A program made the translations under genes and the position numbers. This document shows, in pieces, positions 8,226 to 63,327 of a DNA stretch of 64,000 nucleotides. The notes under the pieces were generated by a model. It saw only the letters and a list, made by a program, of their open reading frames with translations, did no database searches and was not told where the DNA came from. The DNA comes from Armatimonadetes bacterium DC. Lineage in GTDB: Bacteria; Armatimonadota; Fimbriimonadia; Fimbriimonadales; GBS-DC. The stretch is taken from positions 62,001-126,000 of the forward strand of contig LDYB01000023.1 in assembly GCA_001442985.1 (NCBI GenBank), given 5' to 3'. Positions within the stretch are counted from its first letter, which is position 1. Each line of letters begins with the position of its first letter.

Positions 8226-8912
8226 TCACAAAGGCAGGTATTCGAAGCGGGCGATCACCACTTCCACCTCGCGCCCGTTGGTGGGTGGCTCCCCGTTCAG
8301 CAGCCACAGGTTCATGCGGGGGTTTTCACCGCCGGGTACCGGGCGGTTCGGACCTGAATAGACCCATTCGCGATAGAGATATTTCGGGTCTGGCGGCGGC
8401 ACGCGATGCCCCCGAATGCTCTGGAACAAAATGCGGCTCGGCTCCCAGCGGAACAGGTGAACCGAACGGGGAATGTGCGCCAGCCACTCAAAGGCATGCT
8501 GGCGCTGGGGGTCATACCCCAGATGGGGCACCAGCGTGTAGTAGGCGTTGGGTCCCGTGGGTCCCTGAAAACGCGCGAACTCGATATCGATTTCGCGGTG
8601 TCCGTAGGCGGGATCATCGCTCCATGTAAAAAGCCCCAGCACCACCTTCGGGTCCAGGTCATGCACTTCGCTCTCCAGGTAGAAGCGGTAGGTTCCGTAG
8701 CCCAGCGAGCGGGTGCAGATGACCTCGGCGCATTCCCAGCGATTGCCCACGCGTGTGATTTTCAGGTGCAGCCGCCCGCGCGAGTCCACCCACACATTGC
8801 AGTCCGAGTCCGAGAAGTAGTTCGGACCCGGACCGACAGGACTCGTATGACGCTTCACGCGCCATGTGTAGCCTGAAAACTGGAGGGTACGGGAGTATTG
8901 CATCGCCCTCAC
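8226..8912 (-). CDS. Glycoside hydrolase family 16-like protein (operon gene 4)
   Basis: 228-aa protein with a GH16/laminarinase-like jelly-roll. [10 protein letters not shown] and [11 protein letters not shown] precede [10 protein letters not shown], which matches the E-[ILV]-D-[IVAF]-E catalytic motif of GH16 enzymes. That family cleaves beta-1,3/1,4-glucans and galactans. No N-terminal signal peptide is visible in the frame, so it is either cytoplasmic, exported another way, or non-catalytic. The GTG start at 8912 overlaps the upstream pseudopilin stop (GTGA), with an ATG at 8903 as alternative. Position inside the operon and the LacI regulator support a glycan-related role. Confidence 0.72.
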
Positions 8913-9730
8913 CGAATGTTGGGATTGTTCTCGTCGGGATTATCGCCTCCCAGCTGCCAGTTCCATGGGATTTTGATCGCGCCACGGCGGAGCGGTTTCA
9001 CATGCCCATCTGCCCACACCAGCACGGCGACCTTGCCCCCGTGGCGGTAGCGCACCTGAAAGGCGGCGTTCAGGTTCGCGCCCAGCCCGTTGAAGTCGCG
9101 GTCAATGGTGTCCCATTCGGCTTCTGTGCGTGCAGGCTGACCGCCCCAGCCGTTGAGCAGTCCCGGTGTCCACCAGTAGAGCGCGCCGCAGTTGCCCGCC
9201 CACTGCTGGTTCTGCGTGCCGTCGCCGTAGGCAATCGTTTCCGCAGGATGCGTGAGGGTTGCCAGCGACGCGGGCAGACAGGGGTTCAGGTTATTCGAGC
9301 AGCGCCATGTGTCGTTTGCGCCCTGCGCGAAGCCGTTGCCCCCAATGCGCTCGTTCATAGAATAAGCCAACGCGCTCCGATAGGTCGCCGAGGGGCAGCT
9401 GCGCACCGCTGGCGCGGGTCGGGTCGGGTTCGCGCCGTCGCTATAGGTCTCGAAGCGTCCCTCCCCCATATAGGGCGAGATTAAAAAGTGCCAGATAATC
9501 TCGCGCCCAATTCGGGAGCGGGCGTCAAAATAGCCGATCGGGTAGACCTCGTTGTAGTCCTGCAGATACATCTGCGTGCCCAGCCCGACCTGACGGGCGT
9601 TGGAGGCACACTGGGTCTTACGGGCGCTCTCACGCGCCTGCGCGAACACAGGGAACAGAATCGCCGCCAGAATGGCAATAATGGCAATCACCACCAGCAG
9701 TTCAATCAGGGTAAAGCCGTTGCGCTTCAT
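8909..9730 (-). CDS. DUF1559-type pseudopilin (operon gene 3)
   Basis: Prepilin-like protein of 273 aa. A short basic leader MKRNG is followed by [21 protein letters not shown], with the class III prepilin peptidase site (G before F, E at +5), then a soluble domain ending in the H-x9-DG type signature ([18 protein letters not shown]). The domain has several Cys (CSNNLNPC). DUF1559 proteins are abundant in Planctomycetes and Armatimonadota and are presumed type II-like pseudopilins; their role is unknown. The start is ATG 9730, after GGAGGTG with a 5-nt spacer. Unlike the three pseudopilins near 57-62 kb, it is followed by a GH16-like gene, not by a microprotein. Confidence 0.88.
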
Positions 9731-9792
9731 TGTCAGCACCTCCATCGGTTTCAGGGGCTGGCGCGGCAAGATTGCCGCGCCAGCATGGTTGC

Positions 9793-10719
9793 TTAGCCGC
9801 CCGAACCGAAGTTGAACAGCACGGCAAGCAGGTCGGCATCGTCCACCGTGCCGTCGCCGTTCACATCTTCGTCGAGGCAGTCGCCGCTGCTGCCGAAGGC
9901 GAACAGCACCGCCAGCAAGTCGGCGTCATCAACAAGGTTGTCGCTGTTCACATCGTCCACGGGCAGAACCGGCAGGTTGGTCTCGAAGTAATCAAACTCG
10001 AAGGGTTGCGCCAGCCCACACCCGCAGGCGTTATCGGTGTAGACCCCAATTCGGGCGCCCTGCGAGAGCATGTTCATAATATGCTGGTAAAACCCACTGT
10101 CGGGGTAGTAGCGCCCGCCGTTGAAGCCATCGTATTCCACCCAGCCGCCCGTGGCGGAGTTGCGGAACTTGACCACGATATGGGGGTCTTCACCACCCAC
10201 GCGCTCGATGCGCACGCCCACCCAGTCGGTATCGGGCGTCCACGGGTTGGTAACGCGCTCGCCCCAGGCAAAGCCGTCTTCGATTTCCGAGTTCGTGGAA
10301 CCGTTAATCGTGTCGGTCTGATCCGTCGCGTTGCGGGTAATCAGCACCTGGAAGTAGTTGCGGGCGCCCGTCGTAATCACAATTCCCGCCTGCGTGTAGT
10401 AATAGAAGGGCACGGTACTCCAGTCGGTGCGGAACACGGTCTCGATGTACCACTCTTCGGGCAGGTTCGGACCGACGCGCAGGGTGGGCACATTCTTGTG
10501 GGAGTTGAATGCCTGAAACATCGCGCCGTCGCGTGTCTGGATAATCATCGAGTTGCTCGTAAACGATACGGCGTTATCGAACAGGGTGCAGAACGGGTCG
10601 TTCTGCGGCAGTGTCCAGCGCCACTGCTGGCTGAAGCCGCCGTTGAAGTCATCACGCACCTGCACATACGCTGTGCTGATCAGCGACAGAGTTGTGAGCA
10701 AAGCCAGGATTCGCATCAT
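9793..10719 (-). CDS. Secreted DUF1349/lectin-like protein with dockerin-like tail (operon gene 2)
   Basis: Signal peptide [20 protein letters not shown], then a beta-sandwich domain ([33 protein letters not shown]). It ends with paired dockerin-like repeats [21 protein letters not shown] and [21 protein letters not shown]. Architecture and length match the operon's last gene, suggesting duplication. ATG 10719 overlaps the lacI stop (ATGATG, stop TGA inside), and AAGGAGG precedes it, so translation is coupled to lacI. The likely location is the cell surface. A ligand cannot be read from sequence. Confidence 0.8.
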
Positions 10720-11795
10720 CGTTGAACCTCCTTCGATGGAATTTGGGGAGCAACAAGCGCCTGCCCTGCGCTGGGGGGCGCCACCGTTTTGCGGATGACA
10801 AGTGTGGCGGGAAGAGCGATGGAATCGTCGCGAAGTGTGCCGGTCTCAATCTGCTCGTAGAGCAGCTGCGCCGCGAGGTAGCCGACGCGGTGTTTATCGT
10901 GGCGCACGGTGGTCAGGTTCGGACAGAGCGGATGCACGAGCGGTTCGTCGTCGAAGCCCGCCACCGAGAGGTCTTCGGGGATGCGCAGCCCGTGTGCCAG
11001 ACACTCCTGAATGAATCCCGCAGCGGAGCCATCATCGGCGCAGATAACAGCAGTGGGGCGCTCACGCAGAGCGAGCAGCTCACGGGCGCACTGGCGCCCC
11101 GACTCAATCGTGTAGCGCCCCTGAAAAATCCACTCTTCGCGCGTGGGCAGCCCATAGTCCGCCATCGTCTTGCGGAACGCCCGCTCGCGCTGGAGCGCGC
11201 TCCAGTGCAACGGATGCCCCTTCACAAAGCCGATATGGCGATGCCCCTGCTGGATGACCCACTCGGTCAGCATGCGCATGCCGCCCTCGTTGTCCACATC
11301 CACACAGGGAATGCCCAGATTGGGCGGCAGCAGGCTCCCCACTGAGACCACAGGCAATCGCGAATGGCGACGCCACTCCAGCAGCGGTGAGTCGATTACG
11401 GGCGCCAGCAGCAGATGCCCATCCACCGTGCCGTTCTCCAGCCGACGCCAGATGGAGTCGGGGCGCCCTGCAGGCAAAGTGATGAGCTTCACATCATACT
11501 CCAGAGGGAGCAGGAACTCGATAACGCCGTCCAGCACATGCTGGGCGTAGTCGTTCTGGGTCAGCACGGCATGGGCGCGTTCGAAGACCAGCCCAATCGT
11601 GAAGGTGCGCTGTTTGGCTAACCCCCGCGCGAGCATATTGGGACGATAACCGAGACTCCGCGCTGCCGCGAGGACCCGCTCCACCGTTTCGGCACGGTAC
11701 AGCTCGTGCCGCCCCTGCAGGATGTTCGAGGTCGTGGTGAGCGAACATCCCGCCGCCTGAGCCACTTCGCGCAGTGTCGGTTTGCGTGTCGCCAT
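10716..11795 (-). CDS. LacI-family transcriptional regulator (operon gene 1)
   Basis: 359 aa. The N-terminal helix-turn-helix reads TLREVAQAAGCSLTTTSNIL, followed by the hinge helix region (YRPNMLARGL) and a periplasmic-binding-like effector domain (GIPCVDVDNEGG, RHIGFVKGHP, GFDDEPL). Such proteins usually sense a sugar and repress nearby catabolic or surface genes. Two LacI-type operators, TGGAAACGCTTC-like, lie in its own promoter and leader, so it probably represses itself and the four downstream genes. The start ATG 11795 follows GAGGAG. The hinge and operator fit the canonical CG-centred LacI/GalR operator. Confidence 0.93.
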   Translation of the reverse strand: MATRKPTLREVAQAAGCSLTTTSNILQGRHELYRAETVERVLAAARSLGYRPNMLARGLAKQRTFTIGLVFERAHAVLTQNDYAQHVLDGVIEFLLPLEYDVKLITLPAGRPDSIWRRLENGTVDGHLLLAPVIDSPLLEWRRHSRLPVVSVGSLLPPNLGIPCVDVDNEGGMRMLTEWVIQQGHRHIGFVKGHPLHWSALQRERAFRKTMADYGLPTREEWIFQGRYTIESGRQCARELLALRERPTAVICADDGSAAGFIQECLAHGLRIPEDLSVAGFDDEPLVHPLCPNLTTVRHDKHRVGYLAAQLLYEQIETGTLRDDSIALPATLVIRKTVAPPSAGQALVAPQIPSKEVQR

Positions 11796-56354: not shown

Positions 56355-56552
56355 CTATGGACCGCTGGCGCCCTGCCCTTGGGGACGCGCTGGCGCTCCC
56401 TGATTACCCCACGGATTCGACTCGTCGCCAAAGGTTTTAGGCACAACCACATCGTTGCTTTTGGAAGTGCCCTGCCAGAGCCATGCGGCTACCAGCGCTA
56501 CCACAACGATAATCGCAACCACCACAAGCCAGGTAGGAACCTCTTTCTTCAT
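56355..56552 (-). CDS. Single-pass membrane microprotein, cassette 1
   Basis: 65 aa. Short basic N-terminus MKKEVPTW, one helix LVVVAIIVVVALVAAWLW, then a polar tail rich in Gly, Pro and Gln (NPWGNQGAPARPQGQGASGP). ATG 56552 follows AGGAGG. It is 52 bp downstream of a pseudopilin on the same strand. The same order recurs in two more cassettes, so this is a real gene rather than noise. Family unknown to me. Confidence 0.75.
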   Translation of the reverse strand: MKKEVPTWLVVVAIIVVVALVAAWLWQGTSKSNDVVVPKTFGDESNPWGNQGAPARPQGQGASGP

Positions 56553-56604
56553 CTCAAGCCTCCTGAGGTGGGGGGGAGCCTTTCTGGCTCCCCTGGGTGA
56601 GGAA

Positions 56605-57549
56605 TCACATCGTCGAGCGGCACTGCTGGTCGATGGTCGGGTTGTCGCCGGGGTAGTAGACCATCGGGTTCCAGTGGACGCCTGCAGGATTGAAGTTCAC
56701 GCAGGTGAAGTTCTGCGCCCCCGTCTGAACCCGCTCCAGCACCATGCCGCGGTGTTGGGTAGCAGAAACGCGCACATTCGGATCGCCCGCTGCCTGTGCA
56801 ATCTGGGCATCCTGACGCACGGGGAACCACTTGCTGTGCCCATCAGCAAAGGTAACCACATGCCCTTCGTGGCGCCCCGAAATGCCGAAGAACCCGTTGA
56901 CAGGCGTGGAAACATTGATCCAGTAGCCGCCGCCACCGTTACAGCTGGTCACGCCGTCTGTCAACACTACCATGCTGGCAGCCTCGCGGATGCGGGCGTA
57001 TCGAATGTATTGCGCGGAACAGGTTCCATCACAATTGTTGGGGTTTGAAGCACATGGATCCCACACCGCTTGACAACCGGGATCAACTCCTTCCCGACAC
57101 TGCCAGTAGGGGGCGAAGAATTTGTTCATCCCGATGGACTGGAGTCGACGATCGGTATGCCAGTTGCCGCAAGGGGGCGGGTTCACCTCCTGCTCTTCGG
57201 GCACAGGTACACTGGCGTTAAACCGGAACCCCGCACGCGACTGAGCCGCTGAAGGACAGTTATAAACGCCCTTGTTCTTGACATAGGGGTAAATCTGGCG
57301 TGTCCACAAGGAGTTCGCAATCGAAGCGCGCCCCCAGCACCCGCCGCTTGCTAACTCGGGGAAGGTCTCATCGTAGTCGTTGGCATACATGGTGATGGCG
57401 GTGCCCAACTGCTTCAAGTTGCTGAGACACTGGGTCTTTCGTGCGCTCTCTCGCGCACGCGCGAACACAGGGAACAGAATCGCCGCCAGAATCGCGATAA
57501 TCGCAATCACGACCAGAAGCTCAATCAAAGTGAATCCACGCTGTCGCAT
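56605..57549 (-). CDS. DUF1559-type pseudopilin, cassette 1
   Basis: 314 aa. Leader MRQRG, then [21 protein letters not shown] with the prepilin peptidase site and Glu-5. The soluble domain is Cys-rich ([19 protein letters not shown]) and ends in [15 protein letters not shown], the H-x9-DG signature. Start ATG after GCAGGAGGT. Exported to the inner-membrane face and probably assembled by a type II/IV-like machine; the GspF at 19.5 kb is the only machine part seen. Confidence 0.88.
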
Positions 57550-57733
57550 TGCAGTACCTCCTGCAAAAGGGTAAGAATTATGTACCTTGTTGCCCGCAGA
57601 ATTCCTACTCGATAAGAGGGGTTCTGGGGTGTTTTTTCGCGCGAAAACGAGTAAGCCACGCTATCAGAGGGCGTTTGTGCCAGACAGCCAGAACGGCATC
57701 GGGGGCGCCATGGGCATAGCGCCCCCTGCTCCG

Positions 57734-57940
57734 CTACCGCGTCGGCGTCGGCGGCATCTCCTGACCACCGCCCTGCTGCTGGCGTTGCATCTCGCCCGCC
57801 TTACCACCCGGAATCATATCGATGGTCTGAATCACTTTGCCCTCTTCCTGACGAAAGCTGCGATACGCCGAATAGCCTGCAAGCAAAATGGCGACAATCG
57901 CGAAGATGATAATCAGTGTCTTCTTCGTCTGCTCGTTCAT
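57734..57940 (-). CDS. Single-pass membrane microprotein, cassette 2
   Basis: 68 aa. MNEQTKKT, helix LIIIFAIVAILLAGYSAY, then a polar tail with QRQQQGGGQEMPPTPTR. ATG 57940 follows GAGGAGG and is 11 bp after the pseudopilin stop. Same architecture as 56355 and 60627: basic end, helix ending with aromatic residues, Gly/Pro/Gln-rich tail. Confidence 0.78.
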   Translation of the reverse strand: MNEQTKKTLIIIFAIVAILLAGYSAYRSFRQEEGKVIQTIDMIPGGKAGEMQRQQQGGGQEMPPTPTR

Positions 57941-57951
57941 AGCGCGCCTCC

Positions 57952-58749
57952 TCAGTTCTTGAACTCCTCGCTCCAGTGAATCAGATTACGCCGCTTCTGC
58001 TGGACGGCGGTCTGATCCCACGGCCATGCCATGATGGACTTGCGATCCATCGGTTTGGCGTGTCCGTCGGCGAAGCCGAAGGTGGTGAGTTTGGAGTGAG
58101 CGCCAATCGTCATGCGCGCGTCGCCCTGACCGCACCAGTTGAATGCGAAGGTGTTCGGCGCGTCGGGCCAGCTGGGGTCGGCAATATTGCGGTTGTCCCA
58201 GCGCCAGTAGCTCATGTAGCGCCCGTAGCTCACGGTGGTCCAGAGTTCATACATCACGATGGTCTCGGCAGGGCGTCCAATCACCGCCATTGGGCGCGAA
58301 TCTGCCCAGGAGTAGTAGGCGCTGACCCCAAAAGTGGCGATGTTCTCCCAGGTGGGGTCGGGCTGATAGTGCGTCCACGAATAGCTGATGGGGAACCAGA
58401 TACCGTTGGGTCCCGTGCAGTCGTCGCGCCGTACATTATCGCTGGGGCAGCTGAAAATGCCGCGGTTTTTCACATAGGGCATCAGCGCATCCTCGGCGCC
58501 GAACGCCTGGTCGGGTCCGTTGGGGTCGTTGTTAAAGTTGCGGCTGCCTACCAGAAGACGGTGAAACTTCTCATCCCAGTCCTGCTGGTACATCAGAGCG
58601 GAGAGCAAGAGCTGTTTTGTATTGGAAACACAGGTGGTCTGGCGTGCCTTCTCCCGTGCCTGGGCGAACACAGGGAACAGAATCGCTGCCAGAATTGCGA
58701 TAATCGCAATCACCACCAGAAGCTCAATCAGGGTAAAGCCTCTTCGCAT
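57952..58749 (-). CDS. DUF1559-type pseudopilin, cassette 2
   Basis: 265 aa. MRRG plus the [21 protein letters not shown] helix, then [14 protein letters not shown] and a soluble domain with conserved WTHY, and the end [19 protein letters not shown] (H-x9-DG). Start at ATG 58749 after GGAGGTC; the track's five extra residues (MEVKL) are upstream of that. The microprotein follows within 11 bp. Confidence 0.9.
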
Positions 58750-58858
58750 GAGTTTGACCTCCATATTTTCTTAATACGCCGCCAGGGCATCGATTCCTGC
58801 CGTCTGCGACGCCGAAAACCCCTCTTTTTTGAGGTTTTCAGCGGCTCGCGCAAAGCGG

Positions 58859-58864
58859 TATAAT
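58859..58864 (+). promoter_or_regulatory. -10 box of gatC
   Basis: GCGGTATAAT, 10 nt before ATG 58875. Confidence 0.5.
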
Positions 58865-58874
58865 TTCGGGTGCT

Positions 58875-59165
58875 ATGGCGTTGACCCTGGAGCAGATGCG
58901 TCATCTTGCGAAGCTGGCGCGGCTGGAGCTGGATGATGCCCAGTTAGAAGCACTCATGGCACCGATTAATGCGCTGATGGCGCACTTTGAGAAACTGCAG
59001 GCGCTCCCGCTGGACGATGTGGAGCCGACCTCGCATTCCATCCCCGTGTATAACGCCTTTCGGGAGGATATTGTGGGCACGCCGTTGCCCCGCGAAGAGG
59101 CGCTGGCAAATGCGCCCGAAGCCCGCGACGGGCTGTTCATCGTACCCCGCATTGTGGAGGAATAG
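58875..59165 (+). CDS. gatC: Asp/Glu-tRNA amidotransferase subunit C
   Basis: 96 aa. MALTLEQMRHLAKLARLELDD and PLDDVEPTSHSIP are typical GatC motifs. GatC stabilises GatA-GatB in converting Glu-tRNA(Gln) (and Asp-tRNA(Asn)) to the amide. gatA follows with no gap; gatB is not in the window. Confidence 0.93.
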   Translation: MALTLEQMRHLAKLARLELDDAQLEALMAPINALMAHFEKLQALPLDDVEPTSHSIPVYNAFREDIVGTPLPREEALANAPEARDGLFIVPRIVEE

Positions 59166-60611
59166 ATGGCGCTACATACCCTGAGCCTGAGCGTTTTGAG
59201 CGAAAAACTTCGTCGGCGCGAAATCTCGGCGACGGAGCTGACCGAAGCGGTGGTGAGCCACATTGAGCGCACCGAACCCCAGATTGGCGCGTTTATCACG
59301 CTCACACCCGAACTGGCGCGCCAGATGGCGAAGGAAGCCGACGCCCGGCTGGCAGAAGGCGAATGGAACCCCCTGCTGGGCATCCCGATGGCGATTAAAG
59401 ACAACATCAGCACGCGCGGTGTGCGCACCACCTGCGCCTCGCGGATTCTGGAAAACTATGTGCCACCCTACGACGCCACGGTGGTCGCCCGCCTGAAGCA
59501 GGCAGGCGCGGTGATTGTGGGCAAGGCGAACATGGACGAGTTCGCCATGGGCGGTTCTACGGAGTATTCGGCATTTCATCCCACGCGCAACCCGCGCGAT
59601 CTGGAGCGCGTGCCAGGGGGGTCTTCGGGCGGTTCGGCGGCGGCGGTCGCCAGCGATATGGCGGTCGCGGCGCTGGGTTCCGATACGGGCGGCTCCATCC
59701 GCCAGCCAGCGGCGTACTGCGGCGTGGTGGGGCTGAAACCCACCTACGGGCGCGTCAGCCGCTACGGGCTGATCGCCTATGCCTCCTCGCTGGACCAGAT
59801 TGGACCCATCACGAAAACGGTGGAAGACTGTGCGCTGGTGCTTCAGGTGATTGCCGGCAAAGACCCCATGGACGCCACCAGCGTCGATGTGCCTGTACCC
59901 GACTATCGTGAGGCGTTGCGCCCCGATGTGAAGGGGCTGCGGCTGGGCGTGCCGAAAGAGTTTTTTGAGGGTGTTCATCCGGAGGTTGCCCAGCGCGTGC
60001 AAGAGGCAATCGCCGCCCTTGAGGAGGCAGGGGCGGAAGTGCGCGAGGTCTCCATTCCCATGGCGGAGCAAGGGCTGGCGATGTATTACATTCTCGCGCC
60101 AGCGGAGTGTTCTTCGAATCTGGCGCGCTATGACGGCGTGCGCTACGGGTTGCGTGTGGGCGCGGAGAAAGGGCATATCGGCATGATGGAAGCCACCCGC
60201 GCCCAGGGGTTCGGCAAGGAGGTCATCCAGCGGATTATCATCGGCACCTATGCGCTCTCTTCGGGCTACTACGACGCCTACTACCTCAAGGCGCAGAAAG
60301 GGCGCACGCTGCTGCGTCAGGAGTTTGAGCGCGTGTTTCAGGAAGTGGATGTGCTGGTGTGTCCCACCGCGCCGACGCCCCCCTTCAAACTCGGCGAGCT
60401 GGTGGATGACCCCGTGGCGATGAAACTGATGGATGTGCTGACCATCCCTGTGAATCTGGCAGGGTTGCCCGGCTTGTCGGTTCCGTGCGGTCTGGCGGAA
60501 GGGTTGCCGGTGGGGTTGCAGATTATCGGCAAGCCGTTTGACGAGCCGACCGTGTTGCGCGTGGGCTACACCTGGGAGCAGATTCGGGAAGCCCCCTCCC
60601 AGACTCCTTGA
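59166..60611 (+). CDS. gatA: Glu-tRNA(Gln) amidotransferase subunit A
   Basis: 481-aa amidase-signature enzyme that releases ammonia from glutamine. Catalytic triad: Lys-78 (PMAIKDN), Ser-153/154 ([12 protein letters not shown]) and Ser-177 ([16 protein letters not shown]). ATG 59166 abuts the gatC stop. Consistent with indirect charging of the tRNA-Gln at 50.4 kb. Confidence 0.96.
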
Positions 60612-60620
60612 GAGGGGGCT
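60590..60620. terminator. Hairpin at the end of gatA
   Basis: AGCCCCCTC (60590-60598) pairs with GAGGGGGCT (60612-60620) across a 13-nt loop holding the gatA stop; it faces the convergent microprotein gene. T-tract is weak. Confidence 0.5.
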
Positions 60621-60626
60621 AACAGA

Positions 60627-60860
60627 TTAGCGCTTGCCGCCTGTTTCCAGAGGCAAAGAGGAGGCAGGAGCCGCTCGATTGTCCGGGGGCTGAACCCCGA
60701 ACGCTTCCACGCCGGGCTGGTCGGTCTGGGCTTTCGGGTAGGCATGGGCGGCAGGCTCACTTGCGGCACCGCCTCCTGAAGAGAAGTACCATGCCACTGC
60801 GATGGCAATCACAGCGATGAGCGCAATCAGCGCAATCGCAACGGGTTTTGGAATTTGCAT
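60627..60860 (-). CDS. Single-pass membrane microprotein, cassette 3
   Basis: 77 aa. MQIPKP, helix VAIALIALIAVIAIAVAWYF, then a Gly/Pro/Ala tail (GGGAASEPAAHAYPKAQTDQ, PPDNRAAPASSLPLETGGK). I use ATG 60860 after GAGGTGAG; the GTG at 60869 in the track overlaps that ribosome site. It lies 14 bp after the pseudopilin stop. Confidence 0.77.
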   Translation of the reverse strand: MQIPKPVAIALIALIAVIAIAVAWYFSSGGGAASEPAAHAYPKAQTDQPGVEAFGVQPPDNRAAPASSLPLETGGKR

Positions 60861-60874
60861 CCTGCTCACCTCGC

Positions 60875-61831
60875 TTAGTAGTAGTCATCCAGATCCCACA
60901 GGTACTGCTGGGGATCCAGGATGAAGCCACCGCACTGGGGACGCGCGTCGCACCCCTGGGTGAGCTGAGCCGGTGTGTAGGGTTTGACATGCCCGTCGAC
61001 GAACGCGACCATCATGCGCTCGCGTCGGTGCCAGGGCCATGCACCACCAAATTCCATCCAGGTGTACCAGCCCGTTGCGGTCTGCAGACGCCAGCACGCG
61101 GGGCGCGCGCCCATGCCGCAGCTGAGACCAGCATAGTCATACCACCGACTGGCAGCCCCACTGTCGCACTGCTGACGGACGATCGTGAAGCTATCCACGA
61201 CCCCACCCGAAGCGTTGCGCCAGTAACGGCATGGCGGCATCACAATCCAGTTCCCGCCGCAGAGCGGCTGACGCGAGACAGGGTCGCGCCACCAGAGGCT
61301 ATCCACAAACAGCACTGTGGAAGCATGGTTGCGAATCCGGGCATCGGTGGCAGGAGCGTTATACCAGCGCCCTGTATTCGCTTGCTCCATGATGGGCGAG
61401 AGATACACATAGTTGTAGCCCAGGTCCGTTTTGAGTGCCCAACGGTACTCCCGAATGCACTGCTGGGTCGGCGGGGTCTCGCCGTCTGCCGCACAGGCAT
61501 CCAGCCCTGAATCGGTGGCATGCGGGTCGGAAGGACAACGGAACATGAGCCAGTTCTTCACATAGGGCCAGAGCAGCTGCGCCAGGATGCGATCGTTGCA
61601 GTTCTCCTGTCCCGCAAACGAGGCAAACCACTGGGTTAGAGGCTGGGTTGTGTCGTAATCGCTGGTATACATCGCGACTCCGCGTGCCACCTGGTGATAA
61701 CGACTGGCACAGGTAATCTGACGGGCACTTTCACGCGCCTGCGCAAACACGGGGAAAAGGATTGCCGCCAGAATGGCGATAATCGCAATCACGACCAGAA
61801 GCTCAATCAGCGTAAAGCCACGCTTACGCAT
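60875..61831 (-). CDS. DUF1559-type pseudopilin, cassette 3
   Basis: 318 aa. MRKRG and the same [21 protein letters not shown] segment, then [14 protein letters not shown], many Cys ([13 protein letters not shown]-like pairs) and [18 protein letters not shown] near the end (H-x9-DG type). ATG after AGGAGGTG. Third copy of the pseudopilin-microprotein unit. Confidence 0.88.
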
Positions 61832-61938: not shown

Positions 61939-63327
61939 TTACTCTTCGTCGCCGTCTTCGCCCTGAACGCCGAAGTTGAAGAGCACAATCAGCAGGTCGG
62001 CGTCGTCCACTGTGCCATCGCCGTTCAGGTCGGCGGCGGTATCATTCGTGCCGAACGCGAACAGGACGGTCAGCAGATCAGCGTCATCCACACGCAGGTC
62101 GGCGTTCGTGTCGCCGTTCGGCAGAACGACCGTGCCCAGGTCCACCGTGCCCGACACATTCACATTCGGGATGCGCACGCCCAGCCAGTGGGTCTCCGTG
62201 CTGAAGCTCACGCCCGTAACGCAGAAGTTAGTCGGGCAGTTAAGCGTGAGGATGCTGGGCGAATAGATGGGACGCACCACGATGTCGTAAGTGCCTGCCT
62301 CCACTTCGGGCGTGTCGATGGGGAAGTCGGGCCCAGCCGCTGTGGGCATGCTGAAGCGCGCGACGCGCTGCTTCGTGCCCGGGCGGTAGAAAATCACCTC
62401 CACATTGGTGGGCGGTGTGGGAGAAGGCGCATCCGCGCACTGGGCTGTGCCGACCACCTTGCCCGAAGCCGCCGCTGAATTCCGGAAGCCCAGCACGCCA
62501 TTATAGAGGGCAGGGGCATGGTAGCGGTTCCAGTCGGGCTGCGTGTTCCAAGGAGGTGAGTTGGCAAAAGGATCGTCCGCGCGGAAAGGCAGGTCGGTGT
62601 TCAGGATGCGCTCGCAGGTGAAAGGCGCCACGGAAGTGTTGTAGCGGAAGCGCTGCCAACTGGCAGGCTGAATGGGGTTGCTCCCTGCGCTGCCCAGACC
62701 GCGCGGCGAGTAGTAGAGATTCGGACCGCCCGGGGCGCCCATCGCCAGCGCTACATAAGAGTCCAGCCCTGCTGTGCTGTAGTCCTCATCGCCCACGATA
62801 ATTGCAAAGTAGAGACCGGGTGGTAGCGTTACGCTCTGGTTCAGCGGGCTGGTGCGCAGGTAGAGAAAGGTGGTCGTGCCGCCATAATAGGTCAGAATGA
62901 GGGTGTCGGAGGGATCGTTCGGCGGGTCGCCCGGATAATACCCAAGACTTGTGTGGAACAGAACATTATTCAAGTCCGGAATAGGATATCCGGCAGAATC
63001 GGTGGTCGCGCCTGTAATCCAGACACGGATCTCAGGCAGTCCTGTGGACAGGCTGGGTGCGTAACTGATCGAGTCAAAGGTAATCGTATTGTGGATACGG
63101 AAGGGAAAGGCGGTCCAGCGCGCAGGCAGCCCTGCACTGGCAACATCACCCGAAATAAAATAGAGGTAGTCAGCAGTAAGGGTGGGGCTGGCGCATGTAC
63201 CGCCTACTGTATACCACGAGTTCGCGGGGTTCCCTGCAAAGTAAACGAAGGGACCCTGAGCAGAGAGCCTGCCCGTCATCAACAGCGCCGTAAGTGCCAA
63301 CCCAACTACTGTCGCATGTCGCATCAT
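61939..63327 (-). CDS. Large secreted protein with dockerin-like tail
   Basis: 462 aa. Signal peptide MMRHATVVGLALTALLMTGRLSAQ, then about 350 residues of beta-rich sequence with Tyr/Asn/Pro-rich patches and a few Cys (CASP, CERI, CPTNFCVTG). It ends with [42 protein letters not shown] and an acidic GVQGEDGDEE tail. The start at 63327 follows AAAGGAGGTG. Strong promoter. Ligand unknown. Confidence 0.8.
   Translation of the reverse strand: MMRHATVVGLALTALLMTGRLSAQGPFVYFAGNPANSWYTVGGTCASPTLTADYLYFISGDVASAGLPARWTAFPFRIHNTITFDSISYAPSLSTGLPEIRVWITGATTDSAGYPIPDLNNVLFHTSLGYYPGDPPNDPSDTLILTYYGGTTTFLYLRTSPLNQSVTLPPGLYFAIIVGDEDYSTAGLDSYVALAMGAPGGPNLYYSPRGLGSAGSNPIQPASWQRFRYNTSVAPFTCERILNTDLPFRADDPFANSPPWNTQPDWNRYHAPALYNGVLGFRNSAAASGKVVGTAQCADAPSPTPPTNVEVIFYRPGTKQRVARFSMPTAAGPDFPIDTPEVEAGTYDIVVRPIYSPSILTLNCPTNFCVTGVSFSTETHWLGVRIPNVNVSGTVDLGTVVLPNGDTNADLRVDDADLLTVLFAFGTNDTAADLNGDGTVDDADLLIVLFNFGVQGEDGDEE

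Follow-up and report, generated by a model that had tools for sequence, protein, structure and literature searches.

Prepilins of the DUF1559 or SBP_bac_10 type (PF07596) are expanded in Planctomycetota and Armatimonadota. Members of each phylum carry dozens of DUF1559 pilin-like genes. Fimbriimonas ginsengisoli has 79 genes of the PulG type (PMC4072686), Planctopirus limnophila has 68 DUF1559 paralogues, two of which are essential (PMC10632474), and further large DUF1559/PulG sets are described in PMC2754498. Here, a 64,000-nucleotide stretch of contig LDYB01000023.1 (C23) from the 2.85 Mb genome of Armatimonadetes bacterium DC, a member of the order Fimbriimonadales, was analyzed; the stretch is in the following called the window. 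It carries three DUF1559-type pilin genes, each followed by a gene for a very small membrane protein, hereafter the partner. Our sequence comparisons indicate that in the Armatimonadota, which are hot-spring and soil bacteria, many genes for pilus-type fibre proteins are paired with a gene for such a tiny membrane-anchored protein. Because this pairing is conserved across the phylum, the tiny protein probably helps to handle or anchor its own fibre protein.

In Geobacter, the pilin gene pilA-N is paired with a second small gene, pilA-C (spc), which is needed for pilin stability. The cassettes of the window likewise combine a pilin gene with a second small gene. However, the pilin of the Geobacter pair is the short protein, which carries the class III signal, whereas in the window cassettes the pilin is the large protein and its small partner has no such signal. 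In their short N-terminus, their Pro-rich linker and their anchor, which is one helix or a lipid, the partners also resemble PilP and GspC-type proteins. In contrast to these, they end after the linker, without a folded periplasmic domain or RxDPF motif, and adjoin single pilins instead of PilM-N-O. They were therefore not classified as PilP. A partner profile also matched PilP-like N-termini next to PilO-like genes at three loci (L257, L262, L265); these PilP-like proteins are helix-anchored and have a Pro/Gly-rich linker.

In the searches made, papers naming DUF1559 mentioned no small membrane partner for these pilins; this is not proof of novelty, since the literature searched is limited to open papers. 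On the planctomycete plasmid pPL62-1 (L328, 3861-4325), a DUF1559 gene is immediately followed by the gene for a small lipobox protein (WP_156513200.1), a hint that the pairing also exists in Planctomycetota. Its end is basic and Gly-rich (...PPTGKTRGRGRR) and, unlike the partners, it has a longer, folded-looking domain. Including this one, three planctomycete DUF1559 loci were readable in the plasmid collection, too few to derive a rate.

Pilins and partners of the window

The three large proteins possess a GFxxxE class III signal and a hydrophobic N-terminal helix and are thus type IV prepilin-like. N_methyl (PF07963) matched over its cut-off in pilins 1, 2 and 3 (39.2, 35.8 and 37.5 bits, respectively). 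For PF07596, pilin 1 scored 43.5 bits and pilins 2 and 3 were just under the gathering cut-off of 23.3 (22.7 and 22.9 bits); pilin 2 reached 24.8 bits in a genome search, together with a neighboring match. The combination of N_methyl and DUF1559, the latter borderline in pilins 2 and 3, and the large paralogous set (38 members here) agree with the described expansions. No window pilin passed the cut-off of 19 bits for H-X9-DG-CTERM (TIGR04294), which matched pilin 3 alone with 12.4 bits. Each of the three contains a recognizable DGH motif. Among solved structures, geopilin was closest to the N-terminus of pilin 1, and PilA and GspG chains also resembled it. An AlphaFold model of pilin 1 from an alignment of 12 orthologues was poor (pLDDT 37.6). 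Orthologues of pilin 3 in other Fimbriimonadales share 80% and 74% identity.

A preliminary description of the window had placed small open reading frames (ORFs) of 65 to 77 aa 11 to 52 nt downstream of these pilin genes, and this arrangement was found for all three on the minus strand (Table 1). The gaps are 52, 11 and 14 nt in cassettes 1, 2 and 3, the last being 5 nt if partner 3 begins at GTG. Each small ORF (65, 68 and 77 aa) is preceded by a Shine-Dalgarno-like sequence (AGGAGG, GAGGAGG and GAGGTGAG for partners 1, 2 and 3), and no terminator or promoter was placed between pilin and partner by consensus scan. Of the proposed tandem array, the part formed by the directly neighboring cassettes 2 and 1 holds. 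Cassette 3 is split off by gatC-gatA, which is unrelated to the cassettes and lies on the opposite strand, so the three do not form one continuous array. The 2-1 tandem was seen in a single further genus, and an interpretation of the three as one conserved array was rejected for this reason as well. Pilin and partner together make up the unit.

All three small proteins follow a common plan of a short N-terminus, one helix, and a Pro/Gly/Gln-rich tail. The N-terminus often reads M-K-x-E-[IVL]-P-T-[PWG], and the proteins stop some 25-55 aa past the helix. In the AF2 model of partner 1 the helix spans residues 7-32 and is followed by a low-confidence tail. Tails of membrane-anchored partners consist of 19% Pro, 17% Gly and 10% Ala and contain no Cys. 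Aromatic residues at the helix end, noted in the preliminary description as a common trait, were present in 93 of 93 family members, a pattern also expected from an ordinary interfacial aromatic belt. The strong sequence divergence claimed there applies to paralogues, whereas tails of orthologues are highly conserved. Group A comprises 11 orthologues, each after an orthologous pilin, with an invariant M-K-x-E-x-P-x-W start, the tail TFGDESNPFGNQ...GASGP, and 11 invariant positions, several of them in the tail. Orthologues of group B share the tail PGGKxGE[IM]QRQ and follow orthologous pilins in several genera. The 12 orthologues of group C, again each after an orthologous pilin, have an AYP motif and a Gly-Arg/Lys end. 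A further group, D, has GEGRPGEVQAAPPVPGGGAPP, and its tail GxGRxGEVQAAPPVPGGGAPP recurs nearly unchanged in a distant Armatimonadota family (L280, L282, L284, L285, L289, L293).

Neither the window partners nor 24 diverse members gave a match near a curated cut-off in Pfam or NCBIfam, and a profile search of the PDB with a small protein yielded nothing useful. No N_methyl match and no GFxxxE motif were seen in the partners, and a search for natural pilin-partner fusions found none. The partners thus add a family of very small membrane proteins absent from Pfam and NCBIfam. Such a conserved, pair-specific partner would provide a handle on the roles of the pilins and on how such a large number of them could be kept apart.

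Pairing in the source genome and across the phylum

The window is not special within its genome. About 50 prepilin-type N-termini are encoded there, 38 of them DUF1559-type, and 11 of these 38 pilins have a partner. These 11 comprise 9 single-helix proteins and 1 lipoprotein encoded downstream as well as 1 single-helix protein encoded upstream. Among control ORFs from the same set of loci, such a neighbor was found in 16 of 281 cases, or 9 of 281 at a lower count (~3-6%). The true control rate is nearer 3% because several of the 16 were pilins missed by the filter. Even at the higher rate, the probability of at least 11 out of 38 by chance is 6e-6. When 94 pilin loci were selected solely for pilin similarity, a small ORF for a membrane-anchored protein or lipoprotein lay downstream of the pilin in 27 of them.

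A profile built from nine small proteins of the source genome was searched against 60 relatives without considering neighbors. In 80 of the 91 places read, the match was immediately preceded by a pilin gene in the same orientation; for a few of these, just the C-terminal part of the pilin was visible, at a contig end or in a broken frame. In 3 places the pilin gene came directly downstream. A second profile from 24 diverse members matched in 144 of 201 genomes drawn from Armatimonadota, with up to 24 matches per genome. Here, a pilin adjoined within ~300 nt in either order in 46 of the 49 loci read. The two sets overlap in genomes and are not fully independent, and both profiles were built from pilin-adjacent cases and may favor those groups.

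In close pairs from groups A-D, dN/dS was mostly 0.05-0.5 for the small proteins and 0.02-0.2 for their pilins. These are rough estimates, given the shortness of the proteins and a dS that approaches saturation in many of the pairs. The values are well below 1 and indicate that the small proteins are under purifying selection, with tails that are conserved and pair-specific. Rare adjacency of homologues to pilins or an absence of purifying selection had been named in advance as findings that would mark the pairing as coincidental. Homologues lay beside a pilin in 83/91 and 46/49 places. Since both tests were passed, the proposed selection on a paired function is well supported.

Gene order and anchor type vary. 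In three relatives, the order is flipped to LacI regulator, small protein, pilin, with a glycoamylase-like gene next in two of them. The flipped pair of the source genome (C4:79209-82718, L091) is likewise followed by a glycoamylase-like gene. LacI, partner and DUF1559 pilin genes are combined at L091, L241, L251 and L255, with a glycoamylase-like gene in view in the first three. The partner tail of this type, AGxGxPxxPGELPPG, is partly present in Chthonomonas (L206), where the same type of small protein is encoded upstream of the pilin. Several lineages, Chthonomonas-type and others, encode a lipobox lipoprotein with a similar Pro/Gly-rich tail beside the pilin, which places the tail outside. 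On a quickly made pilin tree, the anchor changes between helix and lipid at least 10 times; the tree was labeled automatically, and one label or more (the second L133 pair) is wrong. Thus, the feature that is kept appears to be an anchored tail outside the cytoplasmic membrane. Flipped order and anchor swaps speak for a functional connection and against an accidental arrangement that became fixed.

Possible roles of the small proteins

On the basis of these comparisons, pilin gene and small gene very probably form a functional pair. Each small protein may well, with chances about even, be a dedicated accessory partner of the adjacent DUF1559 pilin, which it would hold and deliver to a shared machine. 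Both proteins would most likely be made from the same transcript. The partner presumably has a cytoplasmic N-terminus, a single helix anchored in the inner membrane, and a disordered Pro/Gly/Gln tail outside. Together with the helix, this tail would bind the cognate prepilin in the membrane. The bound partner would protect the prepilin from aggregation or degradation and pass it to the shared assembly machine. The partly shared N-terminus may serve a common component, and the variable tail may be directed at the cognate pilin. For its ~50 prepilin-type genes, the source genome encodes a single detectable prepilin peptidase and about five GspF/PilC proteins, a setting in which a factor that holds and delivers some of these pilins would make sense. 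For the partner's mode of action taken separately, holding and delivery, rather than permanent anchoring or regulation, is favored tentatively and at slightly less than an even chance. A doubtful extension is a phylum-wide addressing of pilins, in which many members would have their own microprotein whose partly shared N-terminus docks to the machine and whose tail recognizes one pilin. If this were true, one machine could separately build up to ~20 different fibres or pseudopili.

Several observations weigh against holding and delivery. No partner was found for 27 of the 38 DUF1559-type pilins of the source genome, so a partner is not needed by DUF1559 pilins in general. In the search with the first profile, 5 of the remaining places stood alone and 3 were PilP-like N-termini. 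The lipoprotein forms lack the conserved N-terminus, and they may reside at the outer membrane, which would fit holding at the inner membrane less well. Similarity between lipoprotein tails and membrane-anchored tails suggests homology, which is unproven. The main rival explanation, considered rather unlikely but ahead of the others, is that the partner acts as a permanent anchor or base, a role which the preliminary description had given as an example alongside capping. It would attach a short pseudopilus, once assembled, to the inner membrane or envelope and so keep the fibre cell-bound. A membrane anchor with an exported flexible tail, as modeled by AF2, would suit this role, as would the persistence of the tail through changes between helix and lipid. 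In addition, some cassettes lie behind a gene whose dockerin-tailed product is presumably secreted. The 27 pilins without partner speak against a permanent anchor as well, and the conserved motif on the cytoplasmic side would be left unexplained.

It is less likely that the partner is a cap or regulator. In the first case it would be a non-processed subunit whose helix enters the helical fibre core and, because prepilin peptidase is unable to release it, serves there as a cap or terminator. This improbable reading is in line with a helix about as long as that of a pilin, the position of the gene next to the pilin, and the acidic residue that 99 of 128 sequences have close to the N-terminus, but no class III signal was seen in the partners and whole groups, e.g. 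the MNKTLIYV group, lack acidic residues. Small single-pass proteins are often regulators of membrane partners, and some pairs are located in LacI-type operons. A partner that senses the pilin level or controls pilin proteolysis, or a membrane protease or kinase, is nevertheless as improbable as the cap, because the long, pair-specific, exported tails exceed the needs of a minimal regulator. Chance is nearly excluded. The assumption that small membrane ORFs came to lie behind pilins by coincidence and were kept by descent can draw on the conservation of other pilin neighbors in close relatives, and co-inheritance alone would yield agreement across genomes. Where the pilin had a good match in another genome, the best match of the partner belonged to the same cassette in 417 of 425 cases, as is expected of any co-inherited operon pair, and this also counts against a functional reading of the agreement. 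Co-divergence within genomes appears more telling. Pilin and partner similarity of paralogous pairs correlated with r = 0.40, whereas 1000 within-genome shuffles gave a mean of 0.01 and a maximum of 0.37, none reaching 0.40. Together with the enrichment over control ORFs and with genome-wide matches that lie nearly all beside pilins, in both orders and across families, this largely refutes coincidence.

Neighboring genes and other arrangements

Table 1. Features of the window discussed in the text
Feature	Position	Strand	Description
Pilin 1	56605..57549	-	DUF1559-type prepilin, 314 aa; 11 orthologues, 73-81% identity
Partner 1 (group A)	56355..56552	-	65 aa; MKKEVPTW - helix - tail VVVPKTFGDESNPWGNQ...GASGP
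Pilin 2	57952..58764	-	DUF1559-type prepilin, 270 aa (265 aa if second ATG)
Partner 2 (group B)	57734..57940	-	68 aa; MNEQTKKT - helix - tail RQEEGKVIQTIDMIPGGKAGEMQRQ
Pilin 3	60875..61831	-	DUF1559-type prepilin, 318 aa
Partner 3 (group C)	60627..60860	-	77 aa from ATG (80 aa from upstream GTG); MQIPKPVA - helix - tail AHAYP..PGVEAFGVQP...SLPLETGGKR
gatC-gatA	58875..60611	+	Amidotransferase subunits; ORFs 58875-59165 and 59166-60611; named by eye from translation
Dockerin-tailed protein gene	61939..63327	-	Immediately precedes pilin 3; Dockerin_1 match under the cut-off (E = 0.0028)
Fourth pilin	8909..9730	-	No small partner on either side
LacI-type regulator	10716..11795	-	Fourth-pilin run
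Dockerin-tailed protein	9793..10719	-	Fourth-pilin run
228-aa protein	8226..8912	-	Fourth-pilin run; looks like a laminarinase-type glycanase

In at least 6 relatives (L225, L234, L238, L244, L248, L249), the group C pilin gene is directly preceded by a gene for a protein with the dockerin-like tail DDADLLxVLFxFG. The dockerin-tailed protein could be a secreted cargo of the pseudopilus, or its tail could serve in surface sorting. We do not claim it as pilin cargo because about 75 such tails are present in the source genome.

As noted in the preliminary description, the fourth pilin of the window stands without partner. It is part of an operon-like run on the minus strand (8226-11795), whose composition points to a link between DUF1559 pilins and carbohydrate use. 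A different, local pairing of small protein and pilin was observed elsewhere in the source genome (L076, C15:10500-15500). There, a short membrane or signal-peptide ORF overlaps the start of a 235-aa pilin-like protein (MVSRGWSLKELLIAVAIM...), and this arrangement is repeated, with pilin-like copies that start and end identically.

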